Shown one piece after another: positions 28,567 through 34,709 of a DNA stretch of 64,000 nt. The DNA lies in assembly GCF_900142135.1 (NCBI RefSeq), contig NZ_FQZU01000011.1, positions 60,334 through 124,333 of the forward strand. Direction: 5' to 3'. Origin of the DNA: Desulfatibacillum alkenivorans DSM 16219 (GTDB lineage: Bacteria; Desulfobacterota; Desulfobacteria; Desulfobacterales; Desulfatibacillaceae). The position numbers and the translations under genes were made by a program. The notes under the pieces are model-generated. The model was not told the DNA's origin and did not search any database. It worked only from the letters and a program-made list of their open reading frames with translations. Positions within the stretch are counted from its first letter, which is position 1, and the number at the start of each line of letters is the position of its first letter.

Positions 28567-29898
28567 TTACTTTTCAGGCATGGAAATCACCCGGGGCGGC
28601 GCCTTGATAAAATCCTGCTTCAGGCTGTAAGTGTAAGCGCCCTGATCCGGAATCAACAACACGTCCCCCGGCTGAATGTCTTGCCCCCAGTAAGACAGGC
28701 CCCACAAATCGTGGGGCGTGCACAAGGAGCCCATGATCTCGCAGGCCTTTTCCTCCAAAGCCGGCCGGCTCAGGTTCAGCACCGGAGCGTAATCCATTTC
28801 GTAGCGCTCCCAGCCGACGGCGTTGGTTCCGGCGTCGGTGATGACCAGGCCGCCGTCCTTTTTGTCCACCACATTCAGCAACAAATGCATGGCGCCGTTG
28901 CACAGCCACCTGCCCGGCTCCATGCATACGCGGCAGGGAACCGTGGAGAAAATGTGGGTCTCCACCGCCTGATAGAGGGATTGTGCAAAAACCTCCAGGC
29001 TTTGGGCCGGCGCGTAATAATGCTCCAAAGGCCGGTCCACGTCCAGGCCCGCCAGTTTCATCACCTGCCCGGCCTGGGTGACCGGATAGACCTGCCATTC
29101 CCCGGCCTGGGGCCAGTATCCGCCGCCGATGTCCAAAAATTTCAAAGCCCCCAGCATTTCCGGGGACCATTGCCCGACTTCCCTGCCGATGGCCGCAATG
29201 GTCCTGACCTGCTGGGACGGATCCAGGTTCCAGCTTGTATGGAACTGAAGCCCCTGGATTTCCAAACCCGGGCATTCCTGAGCCTTTTTCCAGGCTGCTC
29301 CCAGATTAGCCAGGGCTACGCCGAATTTTTTCCACGGGCTGGAAGGCGGCGTAATGCGAAGGCCAACCCGCACCTTTTTTCCGGCCTGCAACGCCAACCG
29401 GTTCAGGCGCTCCATCTCGCCCAGGCTGTCCATGAGGACTTTCACCCTGCCGGAATTCTCCACGGCAAGGAAAAGCTCCTTGTCCGTCTTGCCCGGACCG
29501 CTGAAGATGACGTCCTCCGCCCCCAAGGCCAGGGCTCTTTCCACTTCCACCCCGCTGGAGACGTCCAGCCCGAATCCCTGATTGACCAAAATCCGGGAAA
29601 CCTCGGGGTGATTGTTGCTTTTCATGGCGTAATAGCAGGCGAAATCCGGAAAACACGCCGCAAACGCGTTTTTGAACATGGCTGCATGTTTTTTCAGATT
29701 GGCGTGATCCAACACATAAAGGGGCTCCTGATGGACCTCAGCCAAATCCAGGAACACCTCCTTCTTGTTGAAAAAACGCTCCACATAGGCCTTGACCATG
29801 GCTCCGGGCAGACGTCCGTCCTTATGCCGAAGCATGGCCTCCACCCGGGATAATGCGTCCCGGAAAGCCGCCTGAGATGGCGTAAAATCAAAGGTCAT
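28567..29898 (-). CDS. PLP-dependent decarboxylase, fold type III (DAP/ornithine decarboxylase-like)
   Basis: This 443-residue protein has the alanine-racemase-type barrel. The PLP Lys is in YYAMKSNNHPE near residue 91. [14 protein letters not shown] and FSGPGKTDKEL follow, then HTSWN, the phosphate-binding LDIGGGYW, EPGRWLCNG, and a beta-domain with SLCTPHDLWG and PDQGAYTYS, which supply the second-subunit Cys/Asp/Tyr. This is the diaminopimelate/ornithine/carboxynorspermidine decarboxylase family, but the spacing fits no single one clearly. The ATG at 29898 overlaps the ATP-grasp stop as ATGA. It is the last gene of the four-gene SpeD-like operon. Predicted role: decarboxylation of an amino-acid-like pathway intermediate. 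Confidence 0.85.
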   Translation of the reverse strand: MTFDFTPSQAAFRDALSRVEAMLRHKDGRLPGAMVKAYVERFFNKKEVFLDLAEVHQEPLYVLDHANLKKHAAMFKNAFAACFPDFACYYAMKSNNHPEVSRILVNQGFGLDVSSGVEVERALALGAEDVIFSGPGKTDKELFLAVENSGRVKVLMDSLGEMERLNRLALQAGKKVRVGLRITPPSSPWKKFGVALANLGAAWKKAQECPGLEIQGLQFHTSWNLDPSQQVRTIAAIGREVGQWSPEMLGALKFLDIGGGYWPQAGEWQVYPVTQAGQVMKLAGLDVDRPLEHYYAPAQSLEVFAQSLYQAVETHIFSTVPCRVCMEPGRWLCNGAMHLLLNVVDKKDGGLVITDAGTNAVGWERYEMDYAPVLNLSRPALEEKACEIMGSLCTPHDLWGLSYWGQDIQPGDVLLIPDQGAYTYSLKQDFIKAPPRVISMPEK

Positions 29899-31142
29899 GG
29901 GCGTTTTATCCTTATTTCGGCCAAGCTCGTCAGAACCCTGTTTTGAAGAGCGACGTCCCTGCCCGCATCCGGTCTGTAAATGACATTCGCCAAAATCCAG
30001 GAGTCGTAATCCCGGGGCGGCAGTTTGATGGAATCCCCGACCCGCCTGAGGGGCTCGAAGCACAGCACCCGCTTATCCGTTAACAGGCCTCCCGGTTCGA
30101 GGCGCTCCAACTCGCCGTCATGGGGGGCGAAAATGCGCATTCCCACGTGGGGCTTGAGGGGCTTCTGCTTCCAATGAATAGGAACTTTGGCCGCAAAATC
30201 CATGGCAAGGGCCATGGTGTCCGGCCCGCCTGCGTTTCGCAACAGCAAGGGCAGGCAGTCCCCTCCGGGCCTGGGCGCCATTTCCAGGAGCCATGGACCG
30301 TTTTCGTTCAGTATAAAGTCCACCATGCAGATGCAGGCTTTCACCCCTGCAGCCCGCGCCGCCTCGGCGAACAGGCCTTCCAGGGCCGCCGTCTCCTTGG
30401 GGGAAAACAGGCCGTCTTTCAACTCATAAGCCTGGGTGATTCCGAAATGTCCGGAATTCAGCCCATGCTTGGCGGTAAGCCGAAGAATCCGGGCCTGTCC
30501 CCCGACAACCAGAAAATCCGCGCTAAACTCCCGGCCCAGGGCGATTTCCTCCATAAGCATGGGCCAGGCCCCTTGCGGGTCCTTGCCTTGCCGGGCGAAA
30601 AACGACTCCGCCGCGGCCGCGGTCTTGGCCCAGTCCGCCCTGGAGTCCATCTTGAACACCAAAGAGCTGCCTGAGCCATCCACGGGCTTTACCACCCAGG
30701 GAGGATTATGCTCCGCCATGAAGGCCAGGGCCTGATCCGGACTTTCCGCCAGGCAGAAGCCCGGCGTGGGAAGGCCGGCGGCCGCCCACAGGCTTTTTGC
30801 CTGGAATTTATTCCGGCAATTGGCCACGGCCCGGGAAGATGGAAAGTCCAGGTCCAGCTCTTCCGCCAGTTCCGCCGCCAAGACCAGGGATTCGCAGTCG
30901 TAGCAGACGATTCCCGCAAGCTCCATGCGGCTGGCCTTGAGATGCTTTTCCAGAGCCTTCCGGGCTTCTTCCAGGTTCAAAGGGCAAAGAACCTCCTCGT
31001 CCGACATGGGGGGAGGTTCGGCCGCATTTTTGCGAACCTGAGGATCCGTTAAAAACAAGCCCTTGCCGGGCCTGATCCGCCGAATTCTGTCCACATAATC
31101 CGGGGTCGTCCCAACAACCAGCACCCGTGCATTATCAGACAC
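29895..31142 (-). CDS. ATP-grasp carboxylate-amine ligase
   Basis: This 415-residue protein has an N-terminal Rossmann-like preATP-grasp domain (ARVLVVGTTPDYV) and an ATP-grasp core: PWVVKPVDGSGSSLVF near residue 145, MEEIALGREFSADF near 190, and the Mg-binding WLLEMAPRPGGDCLP near 275. Enzymes of this fold join a carboxylate to an amine through an acyl phosphate. The start is GTG at 31142, overlapping the upstream stop by eight bases (GTGTCTGA); no ATG is available. The open frame extends to 31427, but only as a shadow of the GNAT gene. It probably forms an amide or peptide bond in the pathway of this operon; substrates unknown. Confidence 0.85.
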   Translation of the reverse strand: MSDNARVLVVGTTPDYVDRIRRIRPGKGLFLTDPQVRKNAAEPPPMSDEEVLCPLNLEEARKALEKHLKASRMELAGIVCYDCESLVLAAELAEELDLDFPSSRAVANCRNKFQAKSLWAAAGLPTPGFCLAESPDQALAFMAEHNPPWVVKPVDGSGSSLVFKMDSRADWAKTAAAAESFFARQGKDPQGAWPMLMEEIALGREFSADFLVVGGQARILRLTAKHGLNSGHFGITQAYELKDGLFSPKETAALEGLFAEAARAAGVKACICMVDFILNENGPWLLEMAPRPGGDCLPLLLRNAGGPDTMALAMDFAAKVPIHWKQKPLKPHVGMRIFAPHDGELERLEPGGLLTDKRVLCFEPLRRVGDSIKLPPRDYDSWILANVIYRPDAGRDVALQNRVLTSLAEIRIKRP

Positions 31143-32109
31143 GGAGTGCAAGCTCCGCTTCCCGGACTGCCGGGTAGACCACGCCAGGCTGCTCTTGCAG
31201 GCGGATCTCCATAAGGGGCCGGGGTATGAGGCGCATGCGCTCTTTCCAGTTAAAATTCCCGCACAAGAAGTCGACACAATCCAGCTTTTCCGCGCAAGCC
31301 CTTTCCAAATGATGAAAATTGATGAGTTTGGCCACTCCGGGAAAATCCCGGTCCACGCCGCCCGCCAAAACCGAGTAATAGCCCTTGTACACCGCGCCCA
31401 CGTCCACGGCGGCCGTCCTGCCTTCAATCAATGCGGCCGTAATCCGCAGCATGCCCTTGTCCCGAAGCCAGGCCAGAAGGTCCTCAAATCCCTTTAAAAA
31501 GCGGGGATCATAAAAATAGGACTCCGGGCCGAAAGCCTCTATATTCATGCGAAACAAAAACTGGGCGTCGTCCATGCAATCAAAACGATATTCCACGCCC
31601 CGGCTTTCCAGCCGCGACGTCTCGGCCATGAGCTTCTTCAAGGTCTTGCGGGGAAAGCTGTTCAGGTATTCCTGAAAATTATAGGAATGCCTTCCGGGGA
31701 AAAACAAATACCCGACCTCATCCTCCTCCGCCCCCGGATACCCGAAAGACTGCTTCATGGGATCCAGATACCGCAAATGCGCGGCGCCCGGCACGGCTTC
31801 CAGCATGGCCTCCAGAGTCCCCCGATCCCTGGCGGGAAAAACGTTGCCTTCCAGCCAGGTCTTGCCCTTCCAGGTTTCTCCGGGGAAAACGGTCCAGGTC
31901 CGGGCTTCCTCCACCCAGCTGAGGGGCAGAAAACCCTCGGCCTCGCCCAAAGCCCCTTCAGCCTTCACGCCGATCACAGGCCGCCGAAAGGCCCTGTGAA
32001 AATGCATCCGGGTCTCCCACAGGTCAAACACGTTCACAGGGGCGGGCATGAGGGCCGCCCACATTCGGGCGATCTCCTCCTGATCGTTTATCAGGGATAT
32101 TTTGGTCAT
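31135..32109 (-). CDS. GNAT/FemAB-like acyltransferase
   Basis: This 324-residue protein has a C-terminal GNAT-like domain of the BioF2/FemAB kind: NSFPRKTLKKLMAE near residue 150, FRMNIEAFGPESYF near 187, ALIEGRTAAVDVGAVYKGYY near 226, and VDRDFPGVAKLINFHHLERA near 253. Related enzymes transfer acyl or aminoacyl groups to an amine, some from aminoacyl-tRNA. The N-terminal half looks like a divergent copy of the same fold, as in FemAB tandem-GNAT proteins. It starts 3 nt after the SpeD-like gene and overlaps the ATP-grasp gene, so it is part of the same pathway. Confidence 0.75.
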   Translation of the reverse strand: MTKISLINDQEEIARMWAALMPAPVNVFDLWETRMHFHRAFRRPVIGVKAEGALGEAEGFLPLSWVEEARTWTVFPGETWKGKTWLEGNVFPARDRGTLEAMLEAVPGAAHLRYLDPMKQSFGYPGAEEDEVGYLFFPGRHSYNFQEYLNSFPRKTLKKLMAETSRLESRGVEYRFDCMDDAQFLFRMNIEAFGPESYFYDPRFLKGFEDLLAWLRDKGMLRITAALIEGRTAAVDVGAVYKGYYSVLAGGVDRDFPGVAKLINFHHLERACAEKLDCVDFLCGNFNWKERMRLIPRPLMEIRLQEQPGVVYPAVREAELALRV

Positions 32110-32112
32110 TCC

Positions 32113-32751
32113 CTATCTCCTCATGGAAACCTGGAGGCTGCTGTCCTCGCCTTTGAAATAATTCACGGCGAACTGCCGGACCAAATACGGGTTGTACGCC
32201 TTGCAGCTGAACACGTCCAAATACACCGCGTTGCTGGCGTTGGCGAAATGAGCTGAAATCAAAGAGGTTTCGATCAATTGCACCATGGAGAAACCGGCCA
32301 CCTTTTCGTCCTCGCCGAAATGCACCACCTGGGTCTCGCCGAAACGCTTCATCTCGATGAGATCGCACAACTCCACCACAAAGCGCTTGATGGCGTCCGC
32401 GTCCCGGATCAGGTCCGGATCGCAACCATAGAGGTCCACGGCAGAAGCCAGGCCCCAGCAGGCATTGTTTTCCACCTGCTCCTTCACGGCCTCGCCTTCC
32501 ATCAGGGAGTTCACCACAAAAGGCCCGGACGGAGCGTCGGCGTATCCGCCCTCTTCATACTCCGTGTAATCGTCCGCATAATCCGCATCCTCATCCGCCG
32601 CCCTTGTTTTGTGCAGCCCCTTGGAGAACTTCAAGGAGCGCCGGTTGCGGCTCATTCTTTCGTCGTCGAAATCCATTTCCGCTGCAGGAAAAACTTCGCG
32701 GGCGCCAAGGCCCTTGCCCCCGTTGGAGCGCTTTTTCTTTTTCGTCATCAT
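32113..32751 (-). CDS. SpeD-like (S-adenosylmethionine decarboxylase fold) protein with N-terminal extension
   Basis: This is a 212-residue protein. Residues 1-95 are charged, low-complexity and probably disordered (KKKKR start, then acidic DEDADYADDYTEYEE). Residues 97-212 match the pyruvoyl-dependent AdoMet decarboxylase fold: VDLYGCD, then VAGFSMVQLIETSLISAHF, then YLDVFSCKAYNPYL. In Thermotoga SpeD the autocleavage serine follows Glu (ESH) and a helper Ser sits in VSG. Here these read ETS and VAG, so the nucleophile is Thr or a Ser shifted by one. His and Cys (SAHF, FSC) are kept. It heads a four-gene operon with GNAT, ATP-grasp and PLP-decarboxylase genes. It may be a divergent pyruvoyl enzyme or a non-catalytic partner. 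GAGGA precedes the ATG. Confidence 0.7.
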   Translation of the reverse strand: MMTKKKKRSNGGKGLGAREVFPAAEMDFDDERMSRNRRSLKFSKGLHKTRAADEDADYADDYTEYEEGGYADAPSGPFVVNSLMEGEAVKEQVENNACWGLASAVDLYGCDPDLIRDADAIKRFVVELCDLIEMKRFGETQVVHFGEDEKVAGFSMVQLIETSLISAHFANASNAVYLDVFSCKAYNPYLVRQFAVNYFKGEDSSLQVSMRR

Positions 32752-32794: not shown

Positions 32795-33234
32795 CCCCAA
32801 TGCCTGCCCCATGAGCAAGGGGCGTGCCAGAGACGAAAAAAATCTTGCAATCCTTCCCATTTTAAGAAATTGATTTCCTAAATTACCGACCCCAACCCGG
32901 CCGCAAAGGCGATTTAAAATTAAAACATCATAAAATCAAAAGATTATAAAAAAGGATCTCCGGTCGGTTTTTTGGTTGAAATGCAAAAGACGCCTCAAAG
33001 GATAATTGGAGCTCAAAGCATTTCCAGGGAAAAAGCCCTAAAAAAGGAATTGAATTGCTTGTTTTTAAGCAGTTATAAGAAACAACTTTCCTATTCTTGA
33101 AATAGCGCGGCAATTCTTTGGGTTTCGCCCATAATTTGGTTGACTTCGGAAAACTATTTCCGATATAAGGCCGTTTAGACATCGCGTCCCCTTGAAATCG
33201 TCTTTCCCCGCCCCTTGTTCGCGTCTATTTTGGA

Positions 33235-33249
33235 CGCCCGCAGCGGGCG
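33235..33249. repeat. Short GC hairpin CGCCCGC-A-GCGGGCG
   Basis: Seven-bp arms around one base, within a GGACGCCCGCAGCGGGCGCC block 50 bp before the sigma-54 activator gene. It is single-copy in this window, but the form is typical of dispersed palindromic repeats. Confidence 0.4.
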
Positions 33250-33299
33250 CCCCTACACCGCGTAAGGGCCGGCATCGGCCCCGGATATTTGGAAACGCC

Positions 33300-34709
33300 A
33301 TGCTCTTAAAAGTCGCCTTGTGCATCGACAACCCCGGCCTGTTGGCCAAGCTGAAAAAATCCCTGGAAAGCCTGGACATCAACCTGGAAGCCTACGGCCC
33401 GGGCCGGTTCACCTGGCAAAAGGTCATCAGAAGCTGCGCCGACATAGTGGTCATCAACGAAAGCCTGCTGCCCCGCCCTATTGAAACCAGCATCGCCGCC
33501 CTGAACGACCTGCCCGAAAACCCGGCGACCATCATCCTGCACATGCACGAGTCCTCCGAAGACCAGGCCGGGCTGGTGGCCGCAGGCGCGGACGCTGCGC
33601 TCCATGCAGGCCTGCCGCCCCGCAGCATTGTTCAGGCCATCGAGGGCGTCATGGAGTCCCGCCTGCAATACATTGTGCGGACCGCCCCGCCCACCCGGCC
33701 CGACTACCGGCCCAGGCTGGAGGATTTCCGCTCCAACAGCCAGTCCATGCAGGCCATGCTCCAGGAGGTGAGGCAGGTTATTTCCAGCAACGCCCAGCTG
33801 CTCATCACGGGCGAGACGGGCGTGGGCAAGGAGCGCCTGGCCCGGGCCATCCACTTTGAAAGCCCCCGGGCCTCGGGGCCTTTTGTGACCGTGAACATGG
33901 CCGCCCTGCCCGAGCAATTGCTGGAAAGCGAGTTGTTCGGCCATATCCAGGGGGCCTTCACCGGCGCGGTGCGCTCCCGCAGGGGCGCCTTTGAAATGGC
34001 CCACCGGGGAACCATATTCCTGGACGAAATCGGCGAAATGCCCATCCATCTCCAGGCCAAGCTCTTAAGGGTGCTGCAGGATTTCGAGGTCAAGCCCCTG
34101 GGGGGAGAAAAGGCCATGTGGGTGGACGTGCGGGTGATCGCCGCCACCAACCGGGACCTGGAGGAGGATGTGCGGACCAAGGCTTTCCGCGGGGATCTTT
34201 TTTACCGCCTGAGCGTCATCACCATCACCATTCCCGCCTTGAAGGAGCGCAGGGAGGATATCGCCCATCTCGCCAGGGATTTCATCACCAACCAGCACGC
34301 CCGGCACGGCAAGGACGTGGAAAGCATCTCCCGGGAGGCCATGGAGGCCCTGACGCGCTACGACTGGCCCGGCAACGTGCGGGAGTTGTTCAACGTTCTG
34401 GAACGGGCCATCATCCTGTGTCCGGACCAGGAAATCACCCTCCGCGACCTGCCCCACATTTTTCAAAGCAATGTGAGAACCGAACACGCGGTTCAGGATG
34501 CAGCCCCCGAGTCCTGGAAGGGAAAAACCCTTAAGGAAGTGACGGACCAGGCCCTAAGCCGGGTGGAAAAGCTGTATCTGGAATCGGTTTTGGAGGAAAC
34601 CGCCGGGAAGATCGGCCCGGCCGCGGACATCGCCGGCATCACCACCCGCTCCCTTTACAACAAAATGCAAAAATACGATCTGGACAAACGGGATTTTAAA
34701 CAGATTTAA
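33300..34709 (+). CDS. Sigma-54-dependent transcriptional activator with degenerate receiver domain
   Basis: This 469-residue protein has three domains. Residues 1-120 look like a receiver domain, but the phospho-acceptor position reads VINESLLP where VLLDxxMP is expected, so aspartyl phosphorylation is unlikely. Residues 140-375 are the AAA+ domain: Walker A GETGVGKE, the sigma-54 contact loop GAFTGAV, Walker B GTIFLDEIGEM, and the DWPGNVREL sensor 2. The C-terminus is a Fis-type helix-turn-helix (AADIAGITTRSLYNKMQKY). ATG at 33300 was chosen; the upstream open frame is repeat and leader. No partner kinase is adjacent and the target genes are unknown. Confidence 0.9.
   Translation: MLLKVALCIDNPGLLAKLKKSLESLDINLEAYGPGRFTWQKVIRSCADIVVINESLLPRPIETSIAALNDLPENPATIILHMHESSEDQAGLVAAGADAALHAGLPPRSIVQAIEGVMESRLQYIVRTAPPTRPDYRPRLEDFRSNSQSMQAMLQEVRQVISSNAQLLITGETGVGKERLARAIHFESPRASGPFVTVNMAALPEQLLESELFGHIQGAFTGAVRSRRGAFEMAHRGTIFLDEIGEMPIHLQAKLLRVLQDFEVKPLGGEKAMWVDVRVIAATNRDLEEDVRTKAFRGDLFYRLSVITITIPALKERREDIAHLARDFITNQHARHGKDVESISREAMEALTRYDWPGNVRELFNVLERAIILCPDQEITLRDLPHIFQSNVRTEHAVQDAAPESWKGKTLKEVTDQALSRVEKLYLESVLEETAGKIGPAADIAGITTRSLYNKMQKYDLDKRDFKQI

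Follow-up and report, generated by a model that had tools for sequence, protein, structure and literature searches.

A conserved sigma-54-associated four-gene operon of Desulfatibacillum alkenivorans and its probable role in the synthesis of a putrescine-based amide

What does an operon make when it encodes a SpeD-like protein, a GNAT-fold transferase, an ATP-grasp ligase and a pyridoxal phosphate (PLP)-dependent decarboxylase? This question is raised by a locus of Desulfatibacillum alkenivorans DSM 16219 lying in the window, that is, the whole stretch of 64,000 nucleotides that was analysed (contig NZ_FQZU01000011.1, positions 60,334 to 124,333 of the forward strand). Window positions are used throughout, and G and L numbers denote the genomes and loci surveyed, G000 being the genome of D. 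alkenivorans itself. A sequence-only reading had described four minus-strand genes forming one tightly joined unit, and the open reading frame (ORF) coordinates bear this out (Table 1), with a 3-nt gap between the SpeD-like and GNAT genes (32110-32112), an 8-nt overlap of the GNAT and ligase genes (31135-31142) and an ATGA overlap of the ligase and decarboxylase genes (29895-29898). The ligase starts with GTG at 31142 and the decarboxylase with ATG at 29898, a longer GTG-start ORF being also listed for the latter. Pfam matches to AdoMet_dc, Acetyltransf_6, ATP-grasp_4 and Orn_Arg_deC, in operon order, confirmed the four protein families named in that reading. On balance, we consider it probable that the operon directs the sigma-54-controlled biosynthesis of a putrescine-based amide, i.e. 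a small pseudo-peptide.

The neighbourhood is not unique to one strain. When the SpeD alignment was scanned against one genome per species (84,980 species), the best 80 of at least 554 confirmed relatives were kept as loci, gene presence being judged by tblastn coverage irrespective of intact frames. By this measure 64 of the 80 loci possess all four genes with order and strand conserved, in hosts that include Desulfobacterota, Planctomycetota, Krumholzibacteriota, Sumerlaeota, Zixibacteria, Deferribacterota and Nitrospirota; 11 loci have a contig end no more than 4.3 kb away, and 5 are without some of the genes despite a long enough stretch (L087, L105, L118, L119 and L128). Two of these five, a SpeD-SpeDC fusion (L118) and a speD-speDC-speE set (L128), are not the operon, and L110, counted as a contig-end locus, is evidently not the operon either, being preceded by speD and followed by no GNAT gene within 518 nt. 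Intergenic gaps in the relatives are mostly short or overlapping, with the exceptions of L068 (846 nt), L071 and L120. In the SpeD tree (51 chosen rows minus L189_fusN), in which many forks are weak, Planctomycetota and Krumholzibacteriota are each placed more than once, which suggests horizontal spread. The insert in L068 (L068:12600-13450) separates ligase from decarboxylase and contains a minus-strand frame that reads like a REP-associated transposase; L070/L071 and L074/L106 are operon copies or remnants, two per genome.

The genes also occur together. An even sample of 395 genomes from the host phylum was searched with four profiles, the searches being taken as covering the same genomes; this sample overlaps the 80 loci, L050 and L064 seeming to belong to G370 and G193. 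The GNAT profile (E <= 1e-30) matched 13 genomes, and the same 13 carry ligase and decarboxylase. Fourteen genomes each were matched by the decarboxylase (E <= 1e-60) and ligase (E <= 1e-30) profiles, the extra ones being a contig-edge fragment (G046) and a distant ligase (G133, 5e-34), respectively. SpeD was found in 24 genomes at E <= 1e-15, 7 of them weaker than the E <= 1e-60 at which 17 were counted, namely 12 of the 13 operon genomes and five without the other genes (G184, G331, G293, G349 and G387). In G369 SpeD lies on a separate contig next to a partial second GNAT gene, and contig ends interrupt the operon in G135. The operon genome without SpeD, G134, retains GNAT, ligase, decarboxylase and divergent activator, and has a PLP-type gene resembling ornithine decarboxylase (ODC; GPTCDSID loop, read from sequence) adjoining speE, as expected if SpeD merely supplies putrescine. 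Because G134 has three genes without SpeD, yet an ODC-like gene near speE, the ligase, decarboxylase and FemX-like (GNAT) genes constitute the core, with SpeD behaving like a replaceable feeder; SpeD as an inseparable part of the operon was dropped in view of G134 and the five genomes with SpeD alone.

Ligase and decarboxylase are fused at L070 and L071 into one stop-free frame of 932 and 865 aa, respectively, each half matching over most of its length. Among 68 complete four-gene sets, a count that takes in the window and leaves out the fusions, pairwise distances were correlated at 0.88 for ligase-decarboxylase, 0.81 for GNAT-ligase, 0.78 for GNAT-decarboxylase and 0.54-0.58 for SpeD with the others, the observed value being reached by 0 of 999 permutations for every pair; the shortness and conservation of SpeD may lower its correlation. 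The ligase alignments likewise leave out the two fusions, and alignments A2-A4 hold 48 sequences each of 71-82 available. The self-contained small pathway proposed by the sequence-only reading is thus supported by gene order across phyla, near-perfect three-gene co-occurrence, correlated divergence and gene fusion; its enzyme identities needed correction, and an amide product is something that we infer.

The SpeD-like enzyme is very probably a pyruvoyl-dependent L-ornithine decarboxylase of the SpeDC type. In all 90 SpeD sequences, five of them non-operon members (L037, L041, L110, L118 and L128), Ser163, His168 and Cys183 are invariant and match Ser63, His68 and Cys83 of Thermotoga maritima numbering; equally invariant are Gln158, Thr162, Phe169 and Tyr177, in alignment columns assigned in this analysis. 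The sections of Li et al. 2023 (PMC10407285) drawn upon here give the Gln, Thr, Phe and Tyr residues as diagnostic for SpeDC and ascribe self-processing and catalysis to the Ser, His and Cys residues; Ser163 is the predicted pyruvoyl-forming residue. The same sections (Table 4 and text) report the C-domain of a Desulfotignum phosphitoxidans fusion as the proven ODC, and with the C-domain of a SpeD-SpeDC fusion from Desulfotignum the window enzyme shares 63% identity across 123 residues. The AdoMetDC-type N-domains of such fusions are without the Gln/Thr/Phe/Tyr set. S-adenosylmethionine decarboxylase (AdoMetDC, SpeD proper) was rejected, TIGR03330 giving 30 bits against a cut-off of 75.65 and 89 of the 90 sequences having Asn at the presumed column of the Pro after His, a residue reported in those sections as completely conserved in true AdoMetDC (PMC10407285). 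The spermidine synthase N-domain, i.e. the SpeE partner, had no match in G000. Of the earlier description as a divergent AdoMet-decarboxylase fold, the family (PF02675) was retained and the AdoMetDC type was not, residues and fusion kinship pointing to SpeDC.

Non-operon relatives belong to speD-speDC(-speE) sets (L128, L110) or are speD-speDC fusions beside speE (names read from sequence), settings similar to those for which ODC activity was proven by Li et al., as far as the sections cited extend (PMC10407285). The operon enzyme has the Ser/His/Cys and Gln/Thr/Phe/Tyr pattern of known SpeDC, and differs in its partners, which are a ligase, a FemX-like transferase and a conjugate-type decarboxylase here and spermidine/homospermidine clusters in that paper. 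Operon SpeDs do not form a strict clade, L036 and L038 falling outside a 33-row clade, as expected of an exchangeable feeder. G400 and G401 carry a SpeD-SpeDC fusion with both sites intact plus an operon copy in the same genome; in G398 (L187, Desulfobacter latus) the fusion C-domain no longer has its Thr-Ser processing site, in agreement with what is reported for the species, and the operon SpeDC is retained. The adjacent AdoMetDC-type speD and speDC genes at L128:1092-2844 (with speE) and L110:4087-4892 are possible forerunners of the fusions. The N-terminal extension of the window SpeDC (32460-32751, about 95 residues) is charged and probably disordered; a similar one is found in a Pirellulales homologue (L051/L193), and most relatives have a shorter extension or none.

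By its modelled fold (AlphaFold, pLDDT 94.4) the ATP-grasp protein is of the L-amino acid ligase type. Its best match is BL00235 (3vot; Z 35.2, root-mean-square deviation (rmsd) 3.4, 381 aligned), 3.5 above the next row, followed by RizA (4wd3, Z 31.7), 4dim (30.3), BacD (3wnz, 29.8) and PurT (29.3), these last three being less than 1 Z unit apart, a tie. The fold is common to BL00235, RizA and BacD over the whole chain, at an identity of just 15-20%, and the ATP-grasp_4 domain scores 42.8 bits against a cut-off of 27.

For the PLP decarboxylase, the best six solved relatives are 7kh2, 6knh, 6knk, 2p3e, 7ru7 and 2j66, of which five (three proteins) belong to the conjugate decarboxylases, a group comprising FigC, SbnH, AcsE, MccE and BtrK, and one is a diaminopimelate decarboxylase (DAPDC), all within 16 bits. 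N-citrylornithine decarboxylase (7kh2) scored 146.6 bits, DAPDC (2p3e) 132.7 and BtrK (7ru7 and 2j66) 131.5 and 131.3; 6knk is SbnH according to the excerpts of PMC7857480 used here. Its CTPHD loop is like CTPKD of SbnH and CTPED of BtrK, the butirosin enzyme (PMC7857480, same excerpts), with which it has CTPxD in common, and unlike CETGD of the DAPDC shown. His396, present in 70 of 72 decarboxylases, aligns with FigC His357, for which docking predicts a contact with the citryl part, and with SbnH Lys347, seen in such a contact; Gln428 aligns with FigC Asn389 and SbnH His379, and Leu426, invariant in 72/72, occupies the position of FigC Arg387, which these excerpts give as predicted to hold the citrate carboxylates (PMC7857480). 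On account of the loop, the His396/Gln428 alignment and the replacement of Arg387 by Leu426, the comparison favours a substrate that is conjugated and non-citryl.

Three candidate identities for the decarboxylase were rejected, namely a citryl-amino-acid decarboxylase of the FigC type (Leu at the Arg387 position), diaminopimelate decarboxylase LysA (TIGR01048, 155 bits against a cut-off of 297.9) and carboxy(nor)spermidine decarboxylase nspC (TIGR01047, 37.7 bits against 409). A stronger PF02784 match than that of the operon enzyme exists in its own genome at G000:C49 (222 versus 95.5 bits). What had been called an ornithine/DAP-type decarboxylase is a member of the PF02784/PF00278 family; it fails the DAP model and appears nearest to enzymes that decarboxylate conjugated amino acids. 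A precedent for the pairing is found in butirosin biosynthesis, where an ATP-grasp enzyme (BtrJ) and an alanine-racemase-fold decarboxylase (BtrK) work with a ligated amino acid as substrate; in contrast, the present four-gene set is without an acyl carrier protein, and the partners are putrescine-forming and FemX-like enzymes.

The AlphaFold model of the GNAT protein (pLDDT 91.7) had only FemX-type enzymes in its eleven best rows, led by 9wqy (Z 18.0, rmsd 3.8, 263 aligned) and including FemX 4ii9 (Z 17.5, rmsd 4.7, 279 aligned). The Sba18/Sbb17 peptide synthases range over Z 17.5-18.0, FemX over 17.0-17.6 and FemA reaches 16.7, followed by 2hqy (function unknown, Z 15.0) and MprF-type domains (about 14-15). 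The protein has two GNAT domains, the model aligning with FemX and Sba18 over residues 1 to about 310. Trp288 (82/82 members) and Lys289 (81/82) resemble DhpH-C Phe328-Lys329 by sequence, Lys289 being a possible counterpart of FemX Lys305; the portions of PMC12945691 consulted describe DhpH-C Lys329 as analogous to this catalytic Lys305. The double-GNAT fold and a putatively equivalent aromatic-Lys pair near the C-terminus are in common with the natural-product FemXAB-like enzymes Sba18, Sbb17, Orf11, DhpH, PacB and VlmA of those portions (PMC12945691), whereas the identity to Sba18/Sbb17 is 14-15% only and the pathway partners differ. A profile search of the GNAT protein against PDB sequences found no relative. 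The claimed GNAT/FemAB-like acyl/aminoacyl transferase thus agrees with PF13480 membership and was refined to a fold nearest to aminoacyl-tRNA-dependent FemX-type enzymes; whether aminoacyl-tRNA is the donor we judge evenly balanced.

Two regulatory features are additions to the sequence-only reading, which mentions neither. A promoter-like site matching the sigma-54 consensus at every position begins 78 nt upstream of the start of speDC, and a sigma-54-dependent activator (bacterial enhancer-binding protein, bEBP) is divergently encoded; its true start is likely near 33300, the first 150 ORF residues having no Pfam match at E <= 0.1. Sites with at least 10/12 positions within 400 nt were found at 32 of the 52 loci that have an intact activator ORF close by and at 2 of 29 others, while 0.27% of shuffled sequences, which keep base content only, reached this level. 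As for the two sites outside the activator group, L077 does have an activator, which runs off the contig, and the stretch of L091 is too short. The 64 complete loci comprise 43 with a divergent activator, 10 with a TetR-type gene (read from sequence) immediately upstream in the same orientation, 6 with neither regulator and 5 with too little upstream sequence. Because of this pattern of sigma-54 site and divergent activator, the operon is probably switched on under some condition.

In the proposed pathway, SpeDC would decarboxylate L-ornithine to putrescine via its self-generated pyruvoyl group, a step that we infer with some force. The ATP-grasp ligase would then amide-link an amino acid to putrescine or one of its derivatives, Glu or Asp, joined through the side-chain carboxylate, being the simplest choice, and the PLP decarboxylase would strip the alpha-carboxylate from the conjugated amino acid to leave an omega-aminoacyl amide, e.g. 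4-aminobutyryl- or beta-alanyl-putrescine, which would be the amide counterpart of homospermidine or spermidine. The FemX-like enzyme would add a further aminoacyl group (from aminoacyl-tRNA) or acyl group to a free amine, the order of this step relative to the ligase step being left free. Successive action of ligase and decarboxylase on a single conjugate is likely; 4-aminobutyryl- or beta-alanyl-putrescine as the exact intermediates are doubtful.

Several observations weigh against this pathway. By sequence, the best solved match of the ligase is 4dim, labelled phosphoribosylglycinamide synthetase (2.7e-32), and 3vot comes a close second (4.8e-30). L-amino acid ligases with solved structures use alpha-carboxylates for the most part, whereas the pathway needs a side-chain carboxylate. 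The lysA model outscores the FslC model on the decarboxylase (156 versus 83 bits), which speaks against a conjugated substrate in particular, and CoA-dependent tandem GNATs trail the FemX group at Z 13-14.6. The set is also incomplete at some loci, the ligase being gone with GNAT and decarboxylase kept in L105, SpeD and GNAT alone being left in L119 with ligase and decarboxylase gone, the decarboxylase being shortened in L087 and the ligase broken in L106, one of the 11 contig-end loci. D. alkenivorans itself has carboxyspermidine dehydrogenase and decarboxylase (CASDH-CASDC) and further fold-III decarboxylases, G008 has two fold-III decarboxylase matches only, one of them the operon's, and putrescine from SpeDC may feed spermidine synthesis too. 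Finally, no recurring transporter gene is found next to the operon at more than 7 of the 80 loci.

The FemX-like enzyme might instead modify the cell envelope, attaching putrescine or its aminoacyl derivative to a peptidoglycan precursor, a lipid or a polysaccharide, with ligase and decarboxylase preparing the attached group. FemX, FemA and MprF, among its nearest folds, are all envelope enzymes, 10 of 48 GNAT members match PF04339 FemAB_like and 6 match LPG_synthase_C weakly, and the scarcity of transporters fits such a role. However, no envelope gene was recognised among the recurring neighbours at the 80 loci (names read from sequence), and the best folds, Sba18/Sbb17, act on a small molecule, though within 1 Z unit of FemX; we regard envelope modification as rather unlikely.

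Plain polyamine synthesis, in which SpeDC makes putrescine, the fourth gene encodes a carboxyspermidine-type decarboxylase and the middle genes are incidental, would suit a polyamine enzyme such as SpeDC, the presence of CASDH-CASDC in G000 and operon genomes that, like G008, are without another fold-III ODC candidate. Against it, the nspC model reaches about 38 bits where 409 are required, the true CASDC of G000 lies at G000:C8, away from the operon, and GNAT, ligase and decarboxylase stay together in 13/13 genomes, 12 of which carry a separate spermidine marker. This marker is the spermidine synthase N-domain in six (G134, G008, G033, G066, G135 and G358) and CASDC above the curated cut-off in six others (G000, G370, G059, G131, G132 and G193), G369 having neither match. 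The sequence-only reading had set plain polyamine synthesis against its own pathway idea, and these results make it very improbable. Elsewhere in G000, the run L180 (G000:C22:6000-14000) comprises metK, a SET-like gene, a fold-III PLP decarboxylase, a class III aminotransferase and an aldehyde dehydrogenase, all named from sequence except for the PF02784 match.

Just as improbable is that the SpeD-like enzyme acts on another amino acid, e.g. arginine, and the pathway on agmatine or another amine. The related SpeDA enzymes are arginine decarboxylases, by the sections of PMC10407285 cited above, whereas no variation is seen here in the residues given as ODC-diagnostic, and the fusion C-domains with which the sequences group include one from Desulfotignum, a genus with a proven ODC C-domain. 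A siderophore or metal chelator with putrescine as building block, comparable to rhizoferrin with its citrate and putrescine, has slighter prospects still, for although the rhizoferrin (FigC/FslC) and staphyloferrin B (SbnH) decarboxylases of the PMC7857480 excerpts are among the nearest solved sequences and His396 stands at the FigC His357 position, this reading is weakened because the citrate-binding Arg is missing, the four-gene set holds no synthetase of the nonribosomal peptide synthetase (NRPS)-independent siderophore type and none was recognised among the recurring neighbours, where no search was aimed at one, and control appears to be by sigma-54.

Returning to the putrescine-based amide, no open-licence PMC paper among those listed was found to describe this gene set by title or abstract, subscription journals and preprints lying outside the search, and the four-gene pathway is apparently undescribed. 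Every enzyme comes from a known fold family, and what seems new is the combination. Because the unit is conserved across several phyla, the product is probably no strain-specific oddity. Tentatively, it may represent a widespread new class of putrescine-cored pseudo-peptides, horizontally spread across many phyla and sigma-54-induced, in which a tRNA-dependent FemX-like enzyme, an ATP-grasp ligase and a conjugate decarboxylase would assemble amide analogues of polyamines with no need of a ribosome, an NRPS or a carrier protein. If true, the role of SpeDC would be widened from polyamine supply to metabolite synthesis, and four enzymes would constitute a compact amide assembly system.

Table 1. 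Positions in the window of the operon genes and of the features linked to their control
Feature	Coordinates	Strand	Details
SpeD-like gene, predicted SpeDC-type decarboxylase	32113..32751	(-)	212 aa; PF02675 2.1e-23
GNAT gene, FemX-type double-GNAT, predicted amide-forming transferase	31135..32109	(-)	324 aa; PF13480 4e-22
ATP-grasp ligase, L-amino acid ligase type by modelled fold	29895..31142	(-)	415 aa; PF13535 5.4e-11
PLP decarboxylase, alanine-racemase fold, putative conjugate-decarboxylase type	28567..29898	(-)	443 aa; PF02784 3.1e-27 + PF00278
Sigma-54 promoter-like site TGGCACGCCCCTTGCT	32814..32829	(-)	12/12 consensus positions
Divergent sigma-54-dependent activator (bEBP)	33192..34709	(+)	PF00158 1.4e-68

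None of the four proteins matched a PADLOC defence model at E <= 0.001, and the decarboxylase had no phage record at E <= 1e-20 and four plasmid records of 27-29% identity. Lone SpeDC-like genes, 43-62% identical, occur on viral contigs at 14 IMG/VR loci (L130-L143), with no other operon genes in the stretches examined. Neighbours were clustered from ORFs of at least 90 aa after greedy overlap removal at the 80 loci and named from sequence. Beyond the four genes and two regulators, DksA/TraR-like genes recur at 12 of these loci (e.g. L053:7647-8096, within 10 kb), an ABC-transporter ATPase-like gene at 7 and EamA-like transporter genes at 5. The EamA-like genes L158:15405-16298, near the SpeD-less operon of G134, and L090:7110-8003 are possible exporters, too rare for membership of the set. 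The esterase and acyl-CoA dehydrogenase genes flanking the operon in the window are also beside it in the same-genus locus L050, and elsewhere in the scan they have weak matches only, the esterase in L076 and the dehydrogenase in L120.

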